Origin: Acidobacteriota bacterium
Lineage (GTDB): Bacteria > Acidobacteriota > Terriglobia > Terriglobales > Acidobacteriaceae
Length of the DNA: 64,000 nucleotides
Assembly: GCA_021846985.1 (NCBI GenBank)
Contig: JAJZVX010000001.1
Coordinates: 310,001-374,000, forward strand
Reading direction: 5' to 3'
Below the pieces are notes generated by a model. It was not told where the DNA came from, ran no database searches, and saw only the letters and a list, made by a program, of their open reading frames with translations. The translations under genes and the position numbers were made by a program. Positions 6,374 through 43,918 of this stretch are shown here, in pieces. Each line of letters begins with the position of its first letter. Position 1 is the first letter of the stretch.

Positions 6374-8524
6374 TCAGGCGAGAGCTTGCAGCAACTCTTC
6401 CGCATCAACGATGGGCGGCAGGCACGTGCGTCCGCGGCAAACGATCGCCCACACAGCGGCGCCCTTTGGCGACGGCATCGGAAGAAGCATCTCCTCCAGC
6501 GCTTCCGGCACTCCGCCGGGCGTCAGCCGGTGGGGGGCGATTCGCATCACCGTTTTGTTCACGGCGAAGCGGGCCACGGCGATTGCCTCCAGCCGCGCCG
6601 CCTCAGGTCCCGAGCCGACCACCACCACTTGCACCGGGTCCAGCAGCAGCCGCTCCAGCGCCAGTCCGTAACTGCCGGCGTACAGGCCAAGGTGCTCCGC
6701 GATTCCCGCCAGCGACTCCAGAGTGTCCGCGGCGATTTCGCGATACTCGCTTCGTCCGCTCAAAGCCTCCAGCCGCAGCAGTGCGGCGGCGGCGGTGGGG
6801 TTGCCGGCCGGCGTGGGCGCATCCTGCAGAGGCTTGCGCCGCGCCGCCAGTGCGCCCAGCGGAGGCGCGCTCTCCGAAGCTGCGGCGCTGTCGAAGAACG
6901 CTCCACCCACCCGGTCATAGAAGCGCGCAATCATGGCGTCGGCCAGCTTCACCCCGGCATGGTAATAGCGCATCTCGCCGCTGCAAAGCCACGCATCAAG
7001 ACACGCGTGCACAGTGAAGGCGTAATCGTCCAGCGTGCCTGCGATCGTTTCTGTTGCGTTCGTGCCCGGCGGATAGGCAATGACGTGACGCAGCGGCTGA
7101 TCGCCATCCCAAGCTTCGTTGAGCAGCCGGTTCAGCGTGAGCAGGGCAAAGTCGCGCGGCCCGCTAAGGCGCAAGACGCGGCTGGTTTCCAGGTAGGCGC
7201 TTATGGCCATCGCATTCCAGCCCGTGTAAAGGGTGCGGTCAATGAAAGGCGCCGGACGGTTGCCGCGCGCCTCCAGCAGCCGCGTGCGTGCCGAGGCCAG
7301 GAGAGGCTTCAGGCTGTCGGTTGTCACGCCGCTCTCTTTTGCCAGCTCGGCCAGAGACTGTTTCACATGCAGTACGTTTTTGGCCGGGTTGTGGTGCATG
7401 TCGCCCAGTTCGCCAATCTCCCAGTATTTTGCGGCGAACTCGAACTCGCCCGGCCGCAGTGCCGCCCGCGCCTCGTCCAGTGTCCATGTAAAGTAGTCGC
7501 CATCGTCCTCAAGATTGATGTCCGCGTCCTGCGAGGCATAGAAACCGCCCTTCACGCGATCCGTCATGACCGTGTCAAGCCAACCGGCAATCTCCTCGGC
7601 GGTGACCCGAAAATCCTTGCGCGCCAGGCTCTGGAATCCATGCACGTAGTTTCGCAGCAGCTCGGTATTGTCGTAGAGCATCTTCTCAAAGTGGGGGACT
7701 ACCCAATGCTCATCGACGCTGTAGCGGTGAAAGCCTCCGGCAAGCTGGTCGTAGACGCCGCCCCCCGCCATTTTTTCCAGGGTCACTTGAAATGCCGCCA
7801 GGGCCAGTTCGTTGTCGCGATGCATGGCCACTTCCAGAAGCAGGTCCAGGGCCGCCGGGTGAGGGAATTTGGGCTGCGATCCGAAGCCGCCGTGGCGCGC
7901 GTCATGCTGCGCCAGGGCAGATCCGGCGATCTTGTCCACAAGGGCGAGGTTGAGTGCCGTGCCGCGCCCCGAGAAGCTTTCGTTGTGTTCGATGGCCGCC
8001 ATCACGTTGGCGGCCGTTTCGAGCGCCTCCTCGCGCCGCTCGTGCCAAACCTGCGCCAGCGTCAACAGTACCTGCCGGATGCCGGGTCTTCCGTAGCGGT
8101 CGTCGCGCGGAATATAGGTTCCGCCAAAGTAAGGCCGGCCATCCGGAGTGAGAAACGCCGTGAGCGGCCAGCCGCCCTGTCCGCTGATTGCGGCCACGGC
8201 CGCCTGATAGCGCGCGTCCACCTCCGGCCGCTCGTCGCGGTCCACCTTGACGGCGACATAATGTTCGTTGATCAGCGCGGCGATTTCGGGATCCTCATAG
8301 GACTCGCGGTCCATTACATGGCACCAATGGCACCACACCGCGCCTATGTCCAGCAGAATCGGCTTGTCCTCGGCTTTTGCCCGCGCAAAGGCATCGCTGC
8401 CCCACGGATGCCAATGCACAGGCTGATGCCGCGCCGAACGCAGGTAAGAGGATGCCGACATTTCCAGCAGGTTCACTTCACCGGGCTCTGAACGATGGGC
8501 ATCACGCATGGGCTGAGCATACAT
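6374..8524 (-). CDS. DUF255/YyaL-family thioredoxin-domain protein
   Basis: PVHWHPWGSDAFARAKAEDKPILLDIGAVWCHWCHVMDRESYED; SGQGGWPLTAFLTPDGRPYFGGTYIP. Confidence 0.93.
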   Translation of the reverse strand: MYAQPMRDAHRSEPGEVNLLEMSASSYLRSARHQPVHWHPWGSDAFARAKAEDKPILLDIGAVWCHWCHVMDRESYEDPEIAALINEHYVAVKVDRDERPEVDARYQAAVAAISGQGGWPLTAFLTPDGRPYFGGTYIPRDDRYGRPGIRQVLLTLAQVWHERREEALETAANVMAAIEHNESFSGRGTALNLALVDKIAGSALAQHDARHGGFGSQPKFPHPAALDLLLEVAMHRDNELALAAFQVTLEKMAGGGVYDQLAGGFHRYSVDEHWVVPHFEKMLYDNTELLRNYVHGFQSLARKDFRVTAEEIAGWLDTVMTDRVKGGFYASQDADINLEDDGDYFTWTLDEARAALRPGEFEFAAKYWEIGELGDMHHNPAKNVLHVKQSLAELAKESGVTTDSLKPLLASARTRLLEARGNRPAPFIDRTLYTGWNAMAISAYLETSRVLRLSGPRDFALLTLNRLLNEAWDGDQPLRHVIAYPPGTNATETIAGTLDDYAFTVHACLDAWLCSGEMRYYHAGVKLADAMIARFYDRVGGAFFDSAAASESAPPLGALAARRKPLQDAPTPAGNPTAAAALLRLEALSGRSEYREIAADTLESLAGIAEHLGLYAGSYGLALERLLLDPVQVVVVGSGPEAARLEAIAVARFAVNKTVMRIAPHRLTPGGVPEALEEMLLPMPSPKGAAVWAIVCRGRTCLPPIVDAEELLQALA

Positions 8525-13790: not shown

Positions 13791-14075
13791 TCAGCCTCTT
13801 TCGTGCTCCAGAGTGGAGATCTCGCGCATCAGGTTCATCGCCTCGTTTTCAAGCAGAGCCTGCTGTGCGCGGAAATCCTCTTCCGGATATTTGCCGGCGC
13901 GGAATTCGAAGTTCAGGTCACGCAGGTTGTCGTAGAGTTGCTCTTTGCGCTCCAGCAGAAACTCGAGGCGCGATTTCTCGCGCTGGTTGGCAAAAACATT
14001 CTCTGGCCAGAAAATGTAAGCAATCAGAGCCATGGTCATGAACAGGCCGGCAAGCAGTCCTTGGGTCTCATTCAT
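13791..14075 (-). CDS. CcmI-like small membrane protein, copy 1
   Basis: N-terminal TM segment, then QREKSRLEFLLERKEQLYDNLRDLNFEFRAGKYPEEDF; downstream of ccmH; paralogue at 40929-41207. Confidence 0.75.
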   Translation of the reverse strand: MNETQGLLAGLFMTMALIAYIFWPENVFANQREKSRLEFLLERKEQLYDNLRDLNFEFRAGKYPEEDFRAQQALLENEAMNLMREISTLEHERG

Positions 14076-14569
14076 AAGAGATACCCTCCATCGCCGCCCG
14101 TTTCACGACGAATTTGTGTGCGCAAGGTCTCATCGATGGGAAGAGCGGGGAGAGGGTGTCCTGCATGGATTGCCCATCGGCGCACCAGGAGAATGGTTCC
14201 CAGGATGGCAGCCACGAGGACGGCGAAAGGGGCGATCCAGGCGACCAGGTCGAATCCATGGGTGGGTGGAGCGGCCAGCACGGTCGTGCCGTACTTGGCA
14301 GCAAAAGAGGCAAGGATCTGCTGATCGTTCATACCCGCGGCCAGATCGGCGCGGAGTTCCGCAAGCTCGGGTCCGGAACTGGGACAACTGACATGATTGC
14401 ACTCGCCCAGCAATTCATTGCAGCCACATACGCACATTAGCCGGTGGTTCAGGTCGTTGTAGCGCGAGCCCGAATCGCTTGCCCCGAGCGAGAAGCAGAC
14501 TGCCAAGGCTAGCCCCGCGGCTTGCAACCACCGCAGCAAAGAGCTGAAGCATGGGGGTCTCCGTTTCAC
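14072..14569 (-). CDS. ccmH: Cytochrome c biogenesis protein CcmH, copy 1
   Basis: NHRLMCVCGCNELLGECNHVSCPSS; C-terminal TM; overlaps ccmF and ccmI-like by 4 bp each. Confidence 0.85.
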   Translation of the reverse strand: MKRRPPCFSSLLRWLQAAGLALAVCFSLGASDSGSRYNDLNHRLMCVCGCNELLGECNHVSCPSSGPELAELRADLAAGMNDQQILASFAAKYGTTVLAAPPTHGFDLVAWIAPFAVLVAAILGTILLVRRWAIHAGHPLPALPIDETLRTQIRRETGGDGGYLL

Positions 14570-16644
14570 GACAGACTACCTCCGAGGGCTGGATCGACAG
14601 AAGGGGAGCGCGCCTGAATGCGCAGGGCGGCCGTTGCCGGACTGAGGCTGGGAGTCAGGGCCACAACAGTGCCGAAGGCCATGAGCACCACTCCGAGCCA
14701 TATCCATCCGACAAGCGGATTGAGAAATGCTTTGATGATCGGTTGACCGGTGGAGGGGTTGGAGCCCTCATAGACAACATAAAGATCCCAACCCGGGACG
14801 GAGTGGATGGCGACCATGGTTTGCGGCTGCTGGCTGGCGAGATAAACGCGTCTTTCCGGGGTGATCTGGAATAGCTTGTGATTGCCGCGCCAAACATCGA
14901 GGAGGGCAAACTCGGAGTCGTAGTTGGGGTTGGAATCCTGGGTGAACCCGACGCAGCGAAGGGTGTAGGGCCCGATGGACAAGCTATCGTGGAGGGCCAT
15001 CTCCTGTTCCTGGCTACGATTGAAGGCCGAACCGGCCAGACCGACAACGACGATGACCACGCCGATGTGGACGAGATAGCCGCCGTAGCGGCGGCTGTTG
15101 CGCCGGGTGAGCAGATACACGGAAGTGAGCAGGTTACGGCCCGTTTGACGCGAGATGACGCGGGAGCCCGAGAAGAACTCGCCGAGGATCGCGGTGAAGA
15201 CTGCGGCGCTCAGGGCGAAGGCTACCAGTGCGTAGAAGTGACCGGCGCTGAAGGCGCCTTGTGTCCAGGGAGTGATGCCCAAGGCGAGGCAGACGATCAC
15301 GGTGGTCCAGAGCGCCAGGACTGGGAGAACGAAGTTGCGGCGGATGCTGCGCAGCGAGGTGGAACGCCAGGGAAGAAGAGGGCCGACGCCGGTAAGGAAG
15401 AGGAGGAAGAGGCCGATGGGAACGGCCACGGCGTTATACCAGGGCGCCCCGACTGTGACCTTGCTGCCCTCTACATACTCGGAGAGGATGGGGAAGAGCG
15501 TTCCCCAGAGGATGACAAAGCAGGCAACCAACAGCACAAGGTTATTGAAGAGGAAGCTGGATTCGCGGCAAACCAGCGATTCCAGGCTGTGTTCGCTCTT
15601 CAGGTGGTCGCGCCGCAGGATATAGGTGAAGATACATACGGCCAGGGTTAGGACCATGAAGGTCACGAACCAGTTGCCGATGGAGGACTGCGCGAAAGCG
15701 TGGACGGAACTGACCAGGCCTGCTCGAGTGAGCAGCGTGCCCAGCATGGTGAGCAGGAAGGTAGAAAAGATGAGCCAGATGTTCCAGCTTTTCATCATGC
15801 CCCGCTTTTCCTGCATCATGACAGAGTGGAGAAAGGCGGTGCCGGTGAGCCATGGCATGAAACTGGCATTTTCCACCGGATCCCATCCCCAGTAGCCGCC
15901 CCAGCCGAGCACGGCGTAGGCCCAGTGCATGCCGAGAAAGATACCGAGGGTGAGGAAGAGCCAGGTGACCATGGTCCAGACGCGGGTGATTTTGATCCAT
16001 CTCTCGCCCGGGTAGCGCATCATGAGGGCGCCGAGGGCGAAGGCGAAGGGGACGGAGAAGCCGACATAGCCGAGGTAGAGCAGGGGCGGATGGATGACCA
16101 TCTCCGGGTACTGGAGCAGGGGATTGAGGCCGTTGCCGTCGGCAGGGATGGTTGCGCCGGCAACATAGCCGGGCAGGAGGGCGAAAGGCGGGGCGGCGAA
16201 GTTGAGGATAAGCAGGAAGAAGGCCTGGATGGCGGCGAGGATGGTTCCGGCGTAAGCGTAGAGCTTGACGTCGGTTTTATGGGTCAGCCTGAGAACAAAG
16301 GCGTAGCCGCCCAGCAGCCAGGCCCAGAGCAGAAGGGAACCTTCCTGGCCGCTCCAAAGTGCCGCGAATTTATAGGCTGCCGGCAAGGCGCGATTGGAGT
16401 GCTCGAGGATGTAGGTGATGGAGAAGTCGTTTGTGAAGACCGACCAAACAAGCGCAAAGGCAGCGCCCGTGGTGGCGACAAAACAGGCGATGCCGGCGCG
16501 GCGAGCAGTGTCGGCGAGCCGCTCCGGGGAGACAGGCCCGGCGCGGCCGACCGCCAGCATCCGCAGGGCAATCGTCCCAGCGGCCAAATTATAGAAAGCA
16601 AGGACCAGAGCAACGAGAAGAGAGAGACTGCCGAAGGTTGCCAT
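14566..16644 (-). CDS. ccmF: Cytochrome c heme lyase CcmF, copy 1
   Basis: 692 aa; WSGQEGSLLLWAWLL; WGGYWGWDPVENASFMPWLTGTAFLHSVMMQEKRGMMKSWN; multiple TM segments. Confidence 0.95.
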   Translation of the reverse strand: MATFGSLSLLVALVLAFYNLAAGTIALRMLAVGRAGPVSPERLADTARRAGIACFVATTGAAFALVWSVFTNDFSITYILEHSNRALPAAYKFAALWSGQEGSLLLWAWLLGGYAFVLRLTHKTDVKLYAYAGTILAAIQAFFLLILNFAAPPFALLPGYVAGATIPADGNGLNPLLQYPEMVIHPPLLYLGYVGFSVPFAFALGALMMRYPGERWIKITRVWTMVTWLFLTLGIFLGMHWAYAVLGWGGYWGWDPVENASFMPWLTGTAFLHSVMMQEKRGMMKSWNIWLIFSTFLLTMLGTLLTRAGLVSSVHAFAQSSIGNWFVTFMVLTLAVCIFTYILRRDHLKSEHSLESLVCRESSFLFNNLVLLVACFVILWGTLFPILSEYVEGSKVTVGAPWYNAVAVPIGLFLLFLTGVGPLLPWRSTSLRSIRRNFVLPVLALWTTVIVCLALGITPWTQGAFSAGHFYALVAFALSAAVFTAILGEFFSGSRVISRQTGRNLLTSVYLLTRRNSRRYGGYLVHIGVVIVVVGLAGSAFNRSQEQEMALHDSLSIGPYTLRCVGFTQDSNPNYDSEFALLDVWRGNHKLFQITPERRVYLASQQPQTMVAIHSVPGWDLYVVYEGSNPSTGQPIIKAFLNPLVGWIWLGVVLMAFGTVVALTPSLSPATAALRIQARSPSVDPALGGSLS

Positions 16645-16735
16645 TCAGACTCCGAAGGGGAAATCGGTGGTGATGGACGGGCAATGCGTGAGGAGCGCCG
16701 ACGTGGAACTCCACAATCATGATAACGCTTCGAGG

Positions 16736-16751
16736 TGTGACGCTGGTCACA
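16736..16751. promoter_or_regulatory. CRP/FNR-superfamily-type palindrome TGTGA-CGCTGG-TCACA upstream of ccmF copy 1
   Basis: Exact TGTGA-N6-TCACA in an intergenic region, 92 bp upstream of the ccmF start codon. Confidence 0.65.
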
Positions 16752-40928: not shown

Positions 40929-41207
40929 TTATGCCTTCTGCAGGGTCTCGATCTGGGCGAGGATGCGGGCCGTCTCGTCTTCCATCAGCGATCTTTGTGC
41001 CTGGTAGTCCTCTTCAGGATATTTGCCGGCGCGGTATTCGAAGTTCAGATCGCGGAGGTTGTCGTAGAGCTGCTCTTTCCGCTCCAGAAGGTAGTCGATG
41101 CGCGTTTTCTCGCGCTGGCTGGCGGAGTTTTTCTCGGGCCAAAAGGTGTAGAGGAAGAGGACCAGGCCGAGAAAGGCGCCGAGGATGAGCCCCAGGGATT
41201 GAGTCAT
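40929..41207 (-). CDS. CcmI-like small membrane protein, copy 2
   Basis: TFWPEKNSASQREKTRIDYLLERKEQLYDNLRDLNFEYRAGKYPEEDYQAQRSLMEDE; paralogue of 13791-14075. Confidence 0.75.
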   Translation of the reverse strand: MTQSLGLILGAFLGLVLFLYTFWPEKNSASQREKTRIDYLLERKEQLYDNLRDLNFEYRAGKYPEEDYQAQRSLMEDETARILAQIETLQKA

Positions 41208-41210
41208 GAT

Positions 41211-41711
41211 CTAAAAGCCTCCATTATTTACCGAGCCGGTTTCGCGGCGGATTTTTTCGCGCAAGGCAAGAGTGGCCGGGTCGTTGTGGAGCACGGCGGG
41301 GGCGGATTGTCCGGCGGACCAGCGGCGGACGAGGAGAATCACGCCGAGGAGAGCGGCGGCAAAGACGGCGAAGGGGGCAATCCAGGCAATGAGGTCAAAG
41401 CCCTTTGCCGGAGGCGCGGCGAGTACGATGGCGCCGTACTTGGCCGAGAATGCGGCGAAGATCTGCTGGTTGGTTTGGCCCGCGGCAATGGCGGCGCTCA
41501 GTTCGTTGCGTTCGCGTGTGGATTCGGTGCAGCCGACATGATTGCACTCGCCGAGCAACTGGGCGCAGCCGCAGGTGCACATCAGCCGGTGGCTCAGATC
41601 GTTGAAGCGCGCGCCGGCAGTGGTGGCGCCCATCGAGAAGCAGACCGCAACGGCCAGCGCCAGGGCCTGGCATGCCCTCATCCAGAAAACGGCAGCTTGG
41701 GAGCGATTCAT
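41211..41711 (-). CDS. ccmH: Cytochrome c biogenesis protein CcmH, copy 2
   Basis: SHRLMCTCGCAQLLGECNHVGCTES; overlaps ccmF by 4 bp; start MNRSQAAVF. Confidence 0.85.
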   Translation of the reverse strand: MNRSQAAVFWMRACQALALAVAVCFSMGATTAGARFNDLSHRLMCTCGCAQLLGECNHVGCTESTRERNELSAAIAAGQTNQQIFAAFSAKYGAIVLAAPPAKGFDLIAWIAPFAVFAAALLGVILLVRRWSAGQSAPAVLHNDPATLALREKIRRETGSVNNGGF

Positions 41712-43726
41712 GCCTGGCCTCCTTTCAGAGCGGCAGGTTTCTGACTGGGCATCAGAGCGATGACGGTGCCGAGGCACATCAGCGCAACGCCGGCCCAAAT
41801 CCAACTGACGAGCGGATTGAGAAAGGCCTTGATGATGGGCTGTCCGGTGTCGGGGTTGGCGCCTTCGTAGACCACATAGAGATCCCATCCCGGAACGGAG
41901 TGAATGGCCACCATGGTTTGGGGCTGCTGGCTGGCCGTGTAGACGCGTTTTTCCGGGTTCATCTGAAACGCGCGCTTCCCGTCCCGGTAGACGTCGAGCA
42001 TGGCGTACTCGGAGTCGTAGTTGGGATTGGCGTCCTGGGTAAAGCCGGTGCACACCAGGGTGTAGGGGCCGATGGGCATCTTGGAGCCGAGCGCCAGTTC
42101 CTGCTCCTGGCTGCGATTGAAGGCCGCTCCGGCCAGTCCGACGACTACGATAACCACGCCGACATGGACGATGTAGCCGCCATAACGGCGGGTATTGCGG
42201 CGGATCAAGGCGAAGATGGAGACGAAGAGGTTGCCGCCGGTTTGCCGGGAGATGACTTTGGCGCCGCGGAGGAATTCCACCACCACGGCGGTGACCACGG
42301 CGGCGGCGAGGACAAAGGCGACCAGCGCGTAAAAGTCACCACGGTCGAATGTGCCGTTGTTCCAGGGGCGGATGCCGGCGGCAAGACAACCGATGACCGT
42401 TAGCCAGAGAACCACGACCGGCGCCACGAAGTTGCGGCGGATGCTCCTGAAGGACGAGGCGCGCCACGGCAGCAGGGGCCCCACGCCGGTGAGAAAGATC
42501 AGAAAGAGTCCGATGGGCACGGCCACGCGGTTAAAGAAGGGCGCTCCGACGGTGACTTTACTGCCCTGGACGAACTCGCTGAGGATGGGGAAGAGCGTGC
42601 CCCAGAGGATGACGAAGCAGGCCGTGAGCAAAACCAGATTGTTGAAGAGGAAGCTGGATTCGCGGCTGACGAGGGATTCGAGCTGGCGTTCGCTCTCCAG
42701 GTGCCGATGCTGAAGGATGTAGGTGAAGATGCAGACGGCAAGCACCAGCAACATGAAGACCAGAAACCAGTTGCCGATGGAGGACTCAGCAAAGGCATGG
42801 ACGGAGCTGACCAAGCCTCCACGGGTGAGCGTGGTGCCCAGCAGAGTGAGCAGGAAGGTGGAGAAGATGAGCCAGATGTTCCAGCTTTTCATCATGCCCC
42901 GTTTTTCCTGCATCATGACAGAGTGGAGAAAGGCGGTGCCGGTGAGCCATGGCATCAGACTGGCATTTTCCACCGGATCCCATCCCCAGTAGCCGCCCCA
43001 GCCGAGCACGGCGTAGGCCCAGTGCATACCAAGAAAGATGCCGAGGGTGAGGAAGAGCCAGGTGACCATGGTCCAGACGCGGGTGATTTTGATCCATCTC
43101 TCGCCGGGGTAGCGCATCATGAGGGCGCCGAGGGCGAAGGCGAAGGGGACGGAGAAGCCGACATAGCCGAGGTAGAGCAGGGGCGGATGGATGACCATCT
43201 CCGGGTACTGGAGCAGGGGATTGAGGCCGAATCCATCCTGCGGGACCGCGCCCTGCGTAAGCGCAAAGGGAGGCGCGGCGAAGACGAGGATAGCGAGGAA
43301 GAAGACCTGCACCGCGGCGATAATGGTTCCCGCGTAGGCGTAGAGCTTGACGTCGGTTTTGTGCCGGAGGCGGAGGATGAAGCCGAAGGTACCGAGCAGC
43401 CACGCCCAGAGGAGCAGCGAGCCTTCCTGGCCGCTCCAGAGGGCGGCGAATTTGTAGGCCGCGGGCAGGTCGCGGTTGGAGTGCTCGAGGATGTAGGTGA
43501 TGGAAAAATCGTTGGCAAAGACCGACCAGATGAGCGCAAAAGCGGCAGCGGAGACGGCCACAAAGCCGGCAATGCCGGCGCGGCGGGCGGTGTCGGCAAG
43601 ACGCTCGGGCGCAATGCGCGAAGACTGGCCCGTGGCGAGAAGCCGGAGGGCCACCGCCCCGGCCAGAAGGTTATAGGCTGCGAGCGCCAGCGCAATAAGA
43701 AGAGCCAGACTTCCGAAGGTCGCCAC
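41708..43726 (-). CDS. ccmF: Cytochrome c heme lyase CcmF, copy 2
   Basis: 672 aa; WGGYWGWDPVENASLMPWLTGTAFLHSVMMQEKRGMMKSWN; collinear with 14566-16644. Confidence 0.95.
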   Translation of the reverse strand: MATFGSLALLIALALAAYNLLAGAVALRLLATGQSSRIAPERLADTARRAGIAGFVAVSAAAFALIWSVFANDFSITYILEHSNRDLPAAYKFAALWSGQEGSLLLWAWLLGTFGFILRLRHKTDVKLYAYAGTIIAAVQVFFLAILVFAAPPFALTQGAVPQDGFGLNPLLQYPEMVIHPPLLYLGYVGFSVPFAFALGALMMRYPGERWIKITRVWTMVTWLFLTLGIFLGMHWAYAVLGWGGYWGWDPVENASLMPWLTGTAFLHSVMMQEKRGMMKSWNIWLIFSTFLLTLLGTTLTRGGLVSSVHAFAESSIGNWFLVFMLLVLAVCIFTYILQHRHLESERQLESLVSRESSFLFNNLVLLTACFVILWGTLFPILSEFVQGSKVTVGAPFFNRVAVPIGLFLIFLTGVGPLLPWRASSFRSIRRNFVAPVVVLWLTVIGCLAAGIRPWNNGTFDRGDFYALVAFVLAAAVVTAVVVEFLRGAKVISRQTGGNLFVSIFALIRRNTRRYGGYIVHVGVVIVVVGLAGAAFNRSQEQELALGSKMPIGPYTLVCTGFTQDANPNYDSEYAMLDVYRDGKRAFQMNPEKRVYTASQQPQTMVAIHSVPGWDLYVVYEGANPDTGQPIIKAFLNPLVSWIWAGVALMCLGTVIALMPSQKPAALKGGQA

Positions 43727-43902
43727 TCAGGGTTCTCCCGTCGCATTCGATTGAAGCCGCTCCATCTGCCCTCAACAGCGCGTGCCTTGCAGGGAAGATT
43801 CGGGGAAGCGCTCCGGGTTTCCACGGCGTATTTCGCCCATGGACGGGGAGCCAGGCGGCTTCTCGACAGGTTCATTTTCTATCCTCGGGTCTCGTTTGAC
43901 CT

Positions 43903-43918
43903 GTGATCTATCTCACAC
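43903..43918. promoter_or_regulatory. CRP/FNR-superfamily-type palindrome TGTGA-TCTATC-TCACA upstream of ccmF copy 2
   Basis: Exact TGTGA-N6-TCACA in an intergenic region, 177 bp upstream of the ccmF start codon. Confidence 0.65.

Follow-up and report, generated by a model that had tools for sequence, protein, structure and literature searches.

Two operons for cytochrome c maturation (ccm) in one Acidobacteriaceae genome are each preceded by a perfect CRP-type palindrome, TGTGA-N6-TCACA, which raises the question of whether these palindromes are genuine binding sites and, if they are, which regulator reads them and what else it may control. The window, that is, the whole stretch of DNA analyzed here, comprises 64,000 nt (C48:310001-374000) of a 3.79-Mb assembly in 48 contigs; the host belongs to the same genus as Occallatibacter savannae.

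Palindromes in front of the two ccm operons

A pattern scan of the window returned two perfect matches, TGTGACGCTGGTCACA (operator 1) and TGTGATCTATCTCACA (operator 2), and no third TGTGA-N6-TCACA was found in the whole-window scan, even with one mismatch allowed; the exact CRP half-sites described in a first-pass annotation of this DNA, and its impression that there was no further perfect copy, were both borne out. Dinucleotide-preserving shuffles gave an expected 0.03 perfect matches per window against the 2 observed, and two or more never arose in 100 shuffles; with one mismatch allowed, 21 of 100 shuffles gave at least two. Operator 1 lies 91 nt from the start codon of ccmF copy 1 (16644, minus strand), in agreement with its reported place upstream of this gene. 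The same arrangement had been claimed for the second operon, where a perfect site is indeed present upstream of ccmF copy 2, but at about twice the distance (175 nt from the start at 43726). The canonical FNR operator, TTGAT-N4-ATCAA, was also tried and rejected, with 1 one-mismatch match in the window versus 1.02 expected. No known leader RNA family reached the threshold in an Rfam search of the window.

The operons themselves are three-gene paralogues, ccmF-ccmH-orf94 at 13791-16644 and ccmF-ccmH-orf92 at 40929-43726 (Table 1). Because CcmF1 and CcmF2 are sisters in the tree (support 94/88), the duplication looks lineage-specific, although each of the two has a long branch. Copy 2 lies downstream of uvrB, as in many relatives' loci, and this place is the ancestral one; copy 1 has moved and now lies beside the bcs cellulose-synthesis locus. 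The retention of a perfect operator at both copies argues for selection on the regulation of both.

Table 1. Features of the two ccm loci, in positions of the window
Feature	Position	Strand	Evidence
Operator 1, perfect TGTGA-N6-TCACA before ccmF1	16736..16751	.	Scan, shuffles, position conserved in genus
Operator 2, perfect TGTGA-N6-TCACA before ccmF2	43902..43917	.	Scan, shuffles
Putative -10 element TATCAT, 11 nt after operator 1	16719..16724	-	Column conservation; promoter role inferred
GA(G/A)AAT element, 22 nt after operator 2	43874..43879	-	Column conservation
ccmF copy 1, haem lyase CcmF, 692 aa	14566..16644	-	Pfam CcmF_C and Cytochrom_C_asm
ccmH copy 1, 165 aa	14072..14569	-	Pfam CcmH
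orf94, small conserved third gene of ccm operon 1	13791..14075	-	57% identity to orf92; follows ccmF-ccmH in relatives
ccmF copy 2, 672 aa, downstream of uvrB	41708..43726	-	Pfam CcmF; uvrB synteny in 25 loci
ccmH copy 2, 156 aa	41211..41681	-	Pfam CcmH
orf92, third gene of ccm operon 2	40929..41207	-	

Most ccmF loci of the genus carry a perfect site, whose usual beginning is ~104 nt ahead of the start codon, and the majority of the remaining loci carry a one-mismatch version; among outgroups, the site is kept in only some. In a site-anchored alignment of the genus ccmF promoters, the half-sites are conserved, the upstream flank is weakly conserved, and two further conserved elements appear downstream of the site, TATnAT at 11 nt and GAGAAT at 22 nt. 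Our ccmF1 promoter retains the former and our ccmF2 promoter the latter, where the GA(G/A)AAT element may represent an alternative -10 or the start region; the spacer of operator 2 resembles the genus consensus, TGTGAGcCAAATCACA. A partner site 22 bp away, as seen at two other loci (below), was searched for at both ccmF operators and is absent.

Sites across the genome and its relatives

Genome statistics were obtained by pattern searches with the reversed pattern as the control. The perfect motif occurs 7 times in the 3.79-Mb genome, against 0 reversed-control matches, and every occurrence is intergenic. Besides ccmF1 and ccmF2, the perfect sites lie before a citrate synthase gene, with succinate dehydrogenase subunits beyond; between folD and a facing cytochrome c/4Fe-4S/NrfD operon; at feoAB and pyruvate:ferredoxin oxidoreductase; and at a universal stress protein (usp) gene heading the regulator cluster. 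The count of 7 includes a possible duplicate: the end of C11 and the start of C18 share ~100 bp including the operator, and the two matches may be one feoAB/PFOR intergenic site split by the assembly, in which case the genes are divergent neighbours. Allowing one mismatch to TGTGAYnnnnRTCACA gave 43 matches versus 5 in the reversed control, and 24 of 25 one-mismatch sites (20 stretches; codon-usage gene caller) were intergenic. With all perfect sites and 24 of the 25 one-mismatch sites examined lying between genes, the motif is uncommon within coding regions; a high frequency there would have refuted the first-pass annotation.

Two of these places stand apart. On C4 (L271:2601-2747), three one-mismatch sites of the form AGTGA...TCACA follow one another at ~65-bp intervals in a single intergenic region; nothing shortly downstream of it looks convincingly like a gene. 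The genome also has two citrate synthase genes, C48:194936-196222 and C48:233913-235220, which are 81% identical, and the perfect operator precedes the second. A close homologue of this operator-bearing gene is missing from most genus members; with few members having the gene, the conservation check of its site returned our own copy alone.

Among relatives, the exact motif was found 382 times in 40 genomes of the genus (22 in the reversed control) and 1141 times in 100 genomes of the family (75 in the reversed control). Of the 29 genus loci for the cytochrome c/4Fe-4S/NrfD operon, 28 show a site that is perfect or has a single mismatch, and a second site frequently lies 22 bp from it. The usp-cNMP-CRP-cNMP-plsY cluster, whose loci hold 57 perfect sites versus 0 control matches, has tandem sites in most of its complete loci, consisting in relatives of a perfect site and a degenerate partner 22 bp downstream. 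The spacing at these two loci suggests side-by-side dimers two helical turns apart. Many of the NrfD-operon promoters (L215-L242) contain a third degenerate site, TGTnCCAGATCACA or ATGATCTGGATCACA, ~56 bp further downstream than the tandem pair and near the start region. Taken with the window and genome counts, we consider the palindrome in front of the ccm genes almost certain to be a genuine binding site that evolution has conserved.

In our genome, one-mismatch sites stand immediately before genes for cytochrome bd oxidase subunit I, 2-oxoacid:ferredoxin oxidoreductase, ferredoxin and polyferredoxin proteins, a DHODB-type Fe-S protein, a cbb3-type cytochrome c, and a nitrate-reductase-gamma-like protein; for a fumarate reductase/succinate dehydrogenase flavoprotein, phosphoketolase, and acetyl-CoA hydrolase/transferase; and for the ATP synthase b subunit, an H+-pyrophosphatase, and further universal stress proteins. 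SAICAR synthetase and an OmpP1/FadL porin are putative targets outside the oxygen theme. The O. savannae sites lie ahead of complex I (from nuoA on), ccmF, usp, and a [NiFe] hydrogenase, as well as a NuoL/Mrp-type subunit, a molybdenum hydroxylase, and several genes of unclear relevance. By gene content, this putative set resembles the FNR regulon of low-oxygen respiration and fermentation; several dozen sites appear to place respiration and low-oxygen metabolism under one CRP/FNR-family switch, of whose regulon ccm is a small part. The usp genes of Acidobacterium capsulatum go up as oxygen falls (PMC11636273).

Few groups of soil bacteria are more abundant than the Acidobacteriota, which continue to respire at oxygen levels as low as the nanomolar range. 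The low-oxygen transcriptomic studies PMC8407424 and PMC11636273 do not name an FNR- or CRP-type regulator, and no acidobacterial CRP/FNR regulon was found in the open-access literature; the regulon behind these sites is apparently previously undescribed. The regulator, the operator, and several dozen putative target promoters together offer a concrete candidate for low-oxygen control, and a cultured relative, O. savannae AB23, bears the sites.

The candidate reader and its rivals

Four CRP/FNR proteins with a helix-turn-helix (HTH) are encoded in the genome. One of them, P0001 (C48:48007-48735; L022:6005-6736), lies within the cluster headed by the conserved operator and consists of a cNMP-binding beta-roll (PF00027, 3.9e-19) and a Crp-type winged HTH (PF13545, 2.3e-21). 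Its AF2 model matches CRP/FNR-fold structures in Foldseek, although with 24 sequences and a pLDDT of 72 the N-terminus is of low confidence and the four-cysteine geometry is not resolved; its nearest solved relatives, by sequence and fold, are GlxR and Mycobacterium tuberculosis CRP. The helix SRETVTR aligns with SRETVGR of Escherichia coli CRP and is invariant in close relatives. In CRP/FNR proteins, positions R180 and E181 correlate with the half-site sequence (PMC1274295), and the R180/E181-type residues in its recognition helix therefore predict a TGTGA half-site for P0001. These R-E residues are found in at least three of the four proteins (P0001, P0003, and P0004), so that there is more than one candidate reader among the homologues that the first-pass annotation had suggested seeking. 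Its proposal that a CRP/FNR-superfamily regulator controls both ccm operons is strongly supported, as the motif is not a common coding-sequence word and a regulator with this predicted specificity is encoded.

P0001 also carries the cysteines C19-x2-C22-x8-C31 and an invariant C70, found in 24 of 24 aligned relatives. The CxxC-x8-C motif and C70 are present as well in P0003, its paralogue, and in almost every one of 29 other homologues checked, and together with the SRETVTR helix they are conserved down to ~45% identity. C118 of P0001 is nearly invariant among close relatives, and the alignment gives no counterpart to C122 of FNR. A [4Fe-4S] cluster in P0001-type proteins can reasonably be inferred from this pattern; that an Fe-S oxygen sensor forms the sensing part of the regulator is a reading towards which we lean slightly. 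The P0001 gene is flanked by two genes for cNMP-binding proteins that have no HTH (L022:5200-5613 and L022:6848-7495 on C48), possible partners or modulators.

Across the 100 family genomes, the exact-motif count follows the count of P0001-type proteins with a Spearman correlation of 0.73 (0.04 for the reversed control), a figure that ignores phylogeny and genome completeness. Twelve of the 100 genomes have no P0001-type protein (E <= 1e-20), with a median of 0.5 and a mean of 2.2 motifs, versus a mean of 12.7 in genomes that have one; this is a natural-deletion test, and its outcome is in the predicted direction. A protein of the P0001 family is, in our view, likely to be the reader of the sites.

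There is a small chance that the sites are read by another CRP/FNR protein of the genome, mainly P0003 or P0004, or by several in competition, which would untie ccm from the cysteine sensor of P0001. P0003 (C8:7258-8007) shares both CxxCx8C and RETVTR with P0001, and the recognition helix of P0004, VRELISR, is likewise R-E. P0004, however, has no site within 4 mismatches upstream, and the perfect tandem operator before the usp-P0001 cluster is kept in relatives, pointing to P0001. The P0003 gene and a multihaem (CXXCH) cytochrome gene point away from each other (C8; L023:8007-8546), and one-mismatch sites at 8170 and 8394 lie between the two, which would suit P0003 as a reader.

It is also improbable that a true, cAMP-responsive CRP of the GlxR or M. 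tuberculosis type reads the sites, so that the respiratory genes would belong to a carbon- or energy-status regulon. The motif is identical, the closest solved relatives of P0001 are of this kind, and there is a respiratory precedent in Mycobacterium smegmatis Crp1, which induces cydAB via two TGTGA-N6-TCACA sites under respiration inhibition (PMC7739888). Against this, the cAMP-pocket residues Glu72, Arg82, and Ser83 of CRP are replaced in P0001, its orthologues, and P0003, and P0004 retains only the Glu; moreover, the four conserved cysteines are foreign to CRP, and the target genes look FNR-like.

The redox repressor Rex, which responds to NADH/NAD+, would have an overlapping and similar regulon, and its operator TTGTGAA-N4-TTCACAA includes TGTGA-N6-TCACA; in Staphylococcus aureus, Rex binds TGTGAn6TCACA upstream of anaerobic genes (PMC2883068). 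Its DNA-binding domain, PF06971, is nevertheless absent from our genome and exceeds the cut-off in only 1 of 100 family genomes, and spacer position 6, an A in the Rex consensus, is A in 9 of 150 half-sites; the missing protein and the spacer preference rule Rex out as the reader, and we regard it as very improbable. Functionless chance palindromes, for which the shuffles reaching two one-mismatch matches might speak, are scarcely credible beside the rarity of perfect sites in shuffles, the enrichment, placement, and co-occurrence with the regulator, and are refuted by conservation at orthologous positions.

A proposed mechanism and its known counterparts

We think it probable that the protein reading the operator is an FNR-like regulator that contains cysteines and recognises DNA in the manner of a CRP, a reading in which binding, the Fe-S cluster, the signal, and the direction of control are all deduced. 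The palindrome would be the operator for a dimeric CRP/FNR-family regulator, most likely P0001, with its paralogue P0003 acting redundantly, and each TGTGA half-site would be contacted by the SRETVTR recognition helix of one subunit. The CxxC-x8-C cysteines and the beta-roll cysteine (C70 of P0001) would hold a redox- or oxygen-sensitive cluster, probably [4Fe-4S], a Zn site or thiol switch being less likely, and this cluster would govern dimerisation and DNA binding, as in FNR. The regulon would be switched as oxygen drops or the redox state becomes more reduced; in this model it takes in both ccmF-ccmH-orf copies, cytochrome bd oxidase, ferredoxin-linked oxidoreductases, ferrous-iron uptake, acetate and phosphoketolase metabolism, an ATP synthase subunit, the H+-pyrophosphatase, and universal stress proteins. 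Feedback on the regulator's own cluster would complete the circuit; autoregulatory sites are present there by computation.

The promoter geometry would suit either direction of control. In genus ccmF promoters, the site centre stands at about -31 relative to TATnAT, a geometry that would suit repression, or at about -42 relative to GAGAAT, which could represent class II activation; two outgroup ccmF promoters look like candidates for class II activation. On a broader scale, we hold with roughly even confidence that the global low-oxygen switch of Acidobacteriaceae may be a distinct clade of oxygen or redox sensors, with CxxC-x8-C and beta-roll Cys ligation unlike that of E. coli or B. subtilis FNR and with CRP-type specificity, present in up to 8 copies per genome, with operators growing alongside and cytochrome c maturation as a conserved target. 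The case would also illustrate cleanly how the recognition code of CRP/FNR proteins can part from the type of sensor.

Several characterized regulators share one or the other half of this combination. HcpR of Desulfovibrio is a CRP/FNR-family regulator with the consensus wTGTGAnnnnnnTCACAw (PMC1274295). It carries no cysteine motif of the FNR type, and its targets are hcp and genes of nitrosative stress, whereas P0001 has a cysteine cluster and no hcp is among the annotated targets here. GlxR of Corynebacterium glutamicum and M. tuberculosis CRP, the best PDB matches, share the SRETV-type helix and a TGTGA-N6-TCACA-type motif; they bind cAMP and have no cysteine cluster, whereas P0001 lacks the pocket and has the cluster. 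Bacillus subtilis Fnr combines a CRP-like TGTGA-N6-TCACA motif with a [4Fe-4S] cluster, held by C-terminal cysteines and an aspartate, whereas the cysteines of acidobacterial P0001 are N-terminal. Crp2 of Thermoanaerobacter tengcongensis, orthologous to B. subtilis FNR, likewise has a CRP-like TGTGA-N6-TCACA motif (PMC1274295), so that an Fnr-type oxygen regulator with a CRP-like motif has a parallel in both species.

P0001 has the CRP/FNR fold in common with FNR of E. coli and Aliivibrio fischeri, along with three cysteines in an equivalent N-terminal location and a putative low-oxygen respiration regulon with feo and cyd. A usp gene also accompanies the regulator gene: in E. coli, fnr has uspE as its neighbour, and in our genome usp precedes the P0001 cluster. 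E. coli FNR differs in having CxxC-x5-C and C122, where P0001 has CxxC-x8-C and a fourth Cys elsewhere; the E. coli [4Fe-4S] ligand pattern does not apply to P0001, which has the invariant C70 and near-invariant C118 instead. It differs as well in its ETISR helix, which reads TTGAT-N4-ATCAA, the helix and motif of P0001 being of CRP type. Functionally, the FNR proteins are the closest precedents, and the predicted N-terminal CxxC-x8-C sensor together with a CRP-type motif makes the acidobacterial regulator a variant of them.
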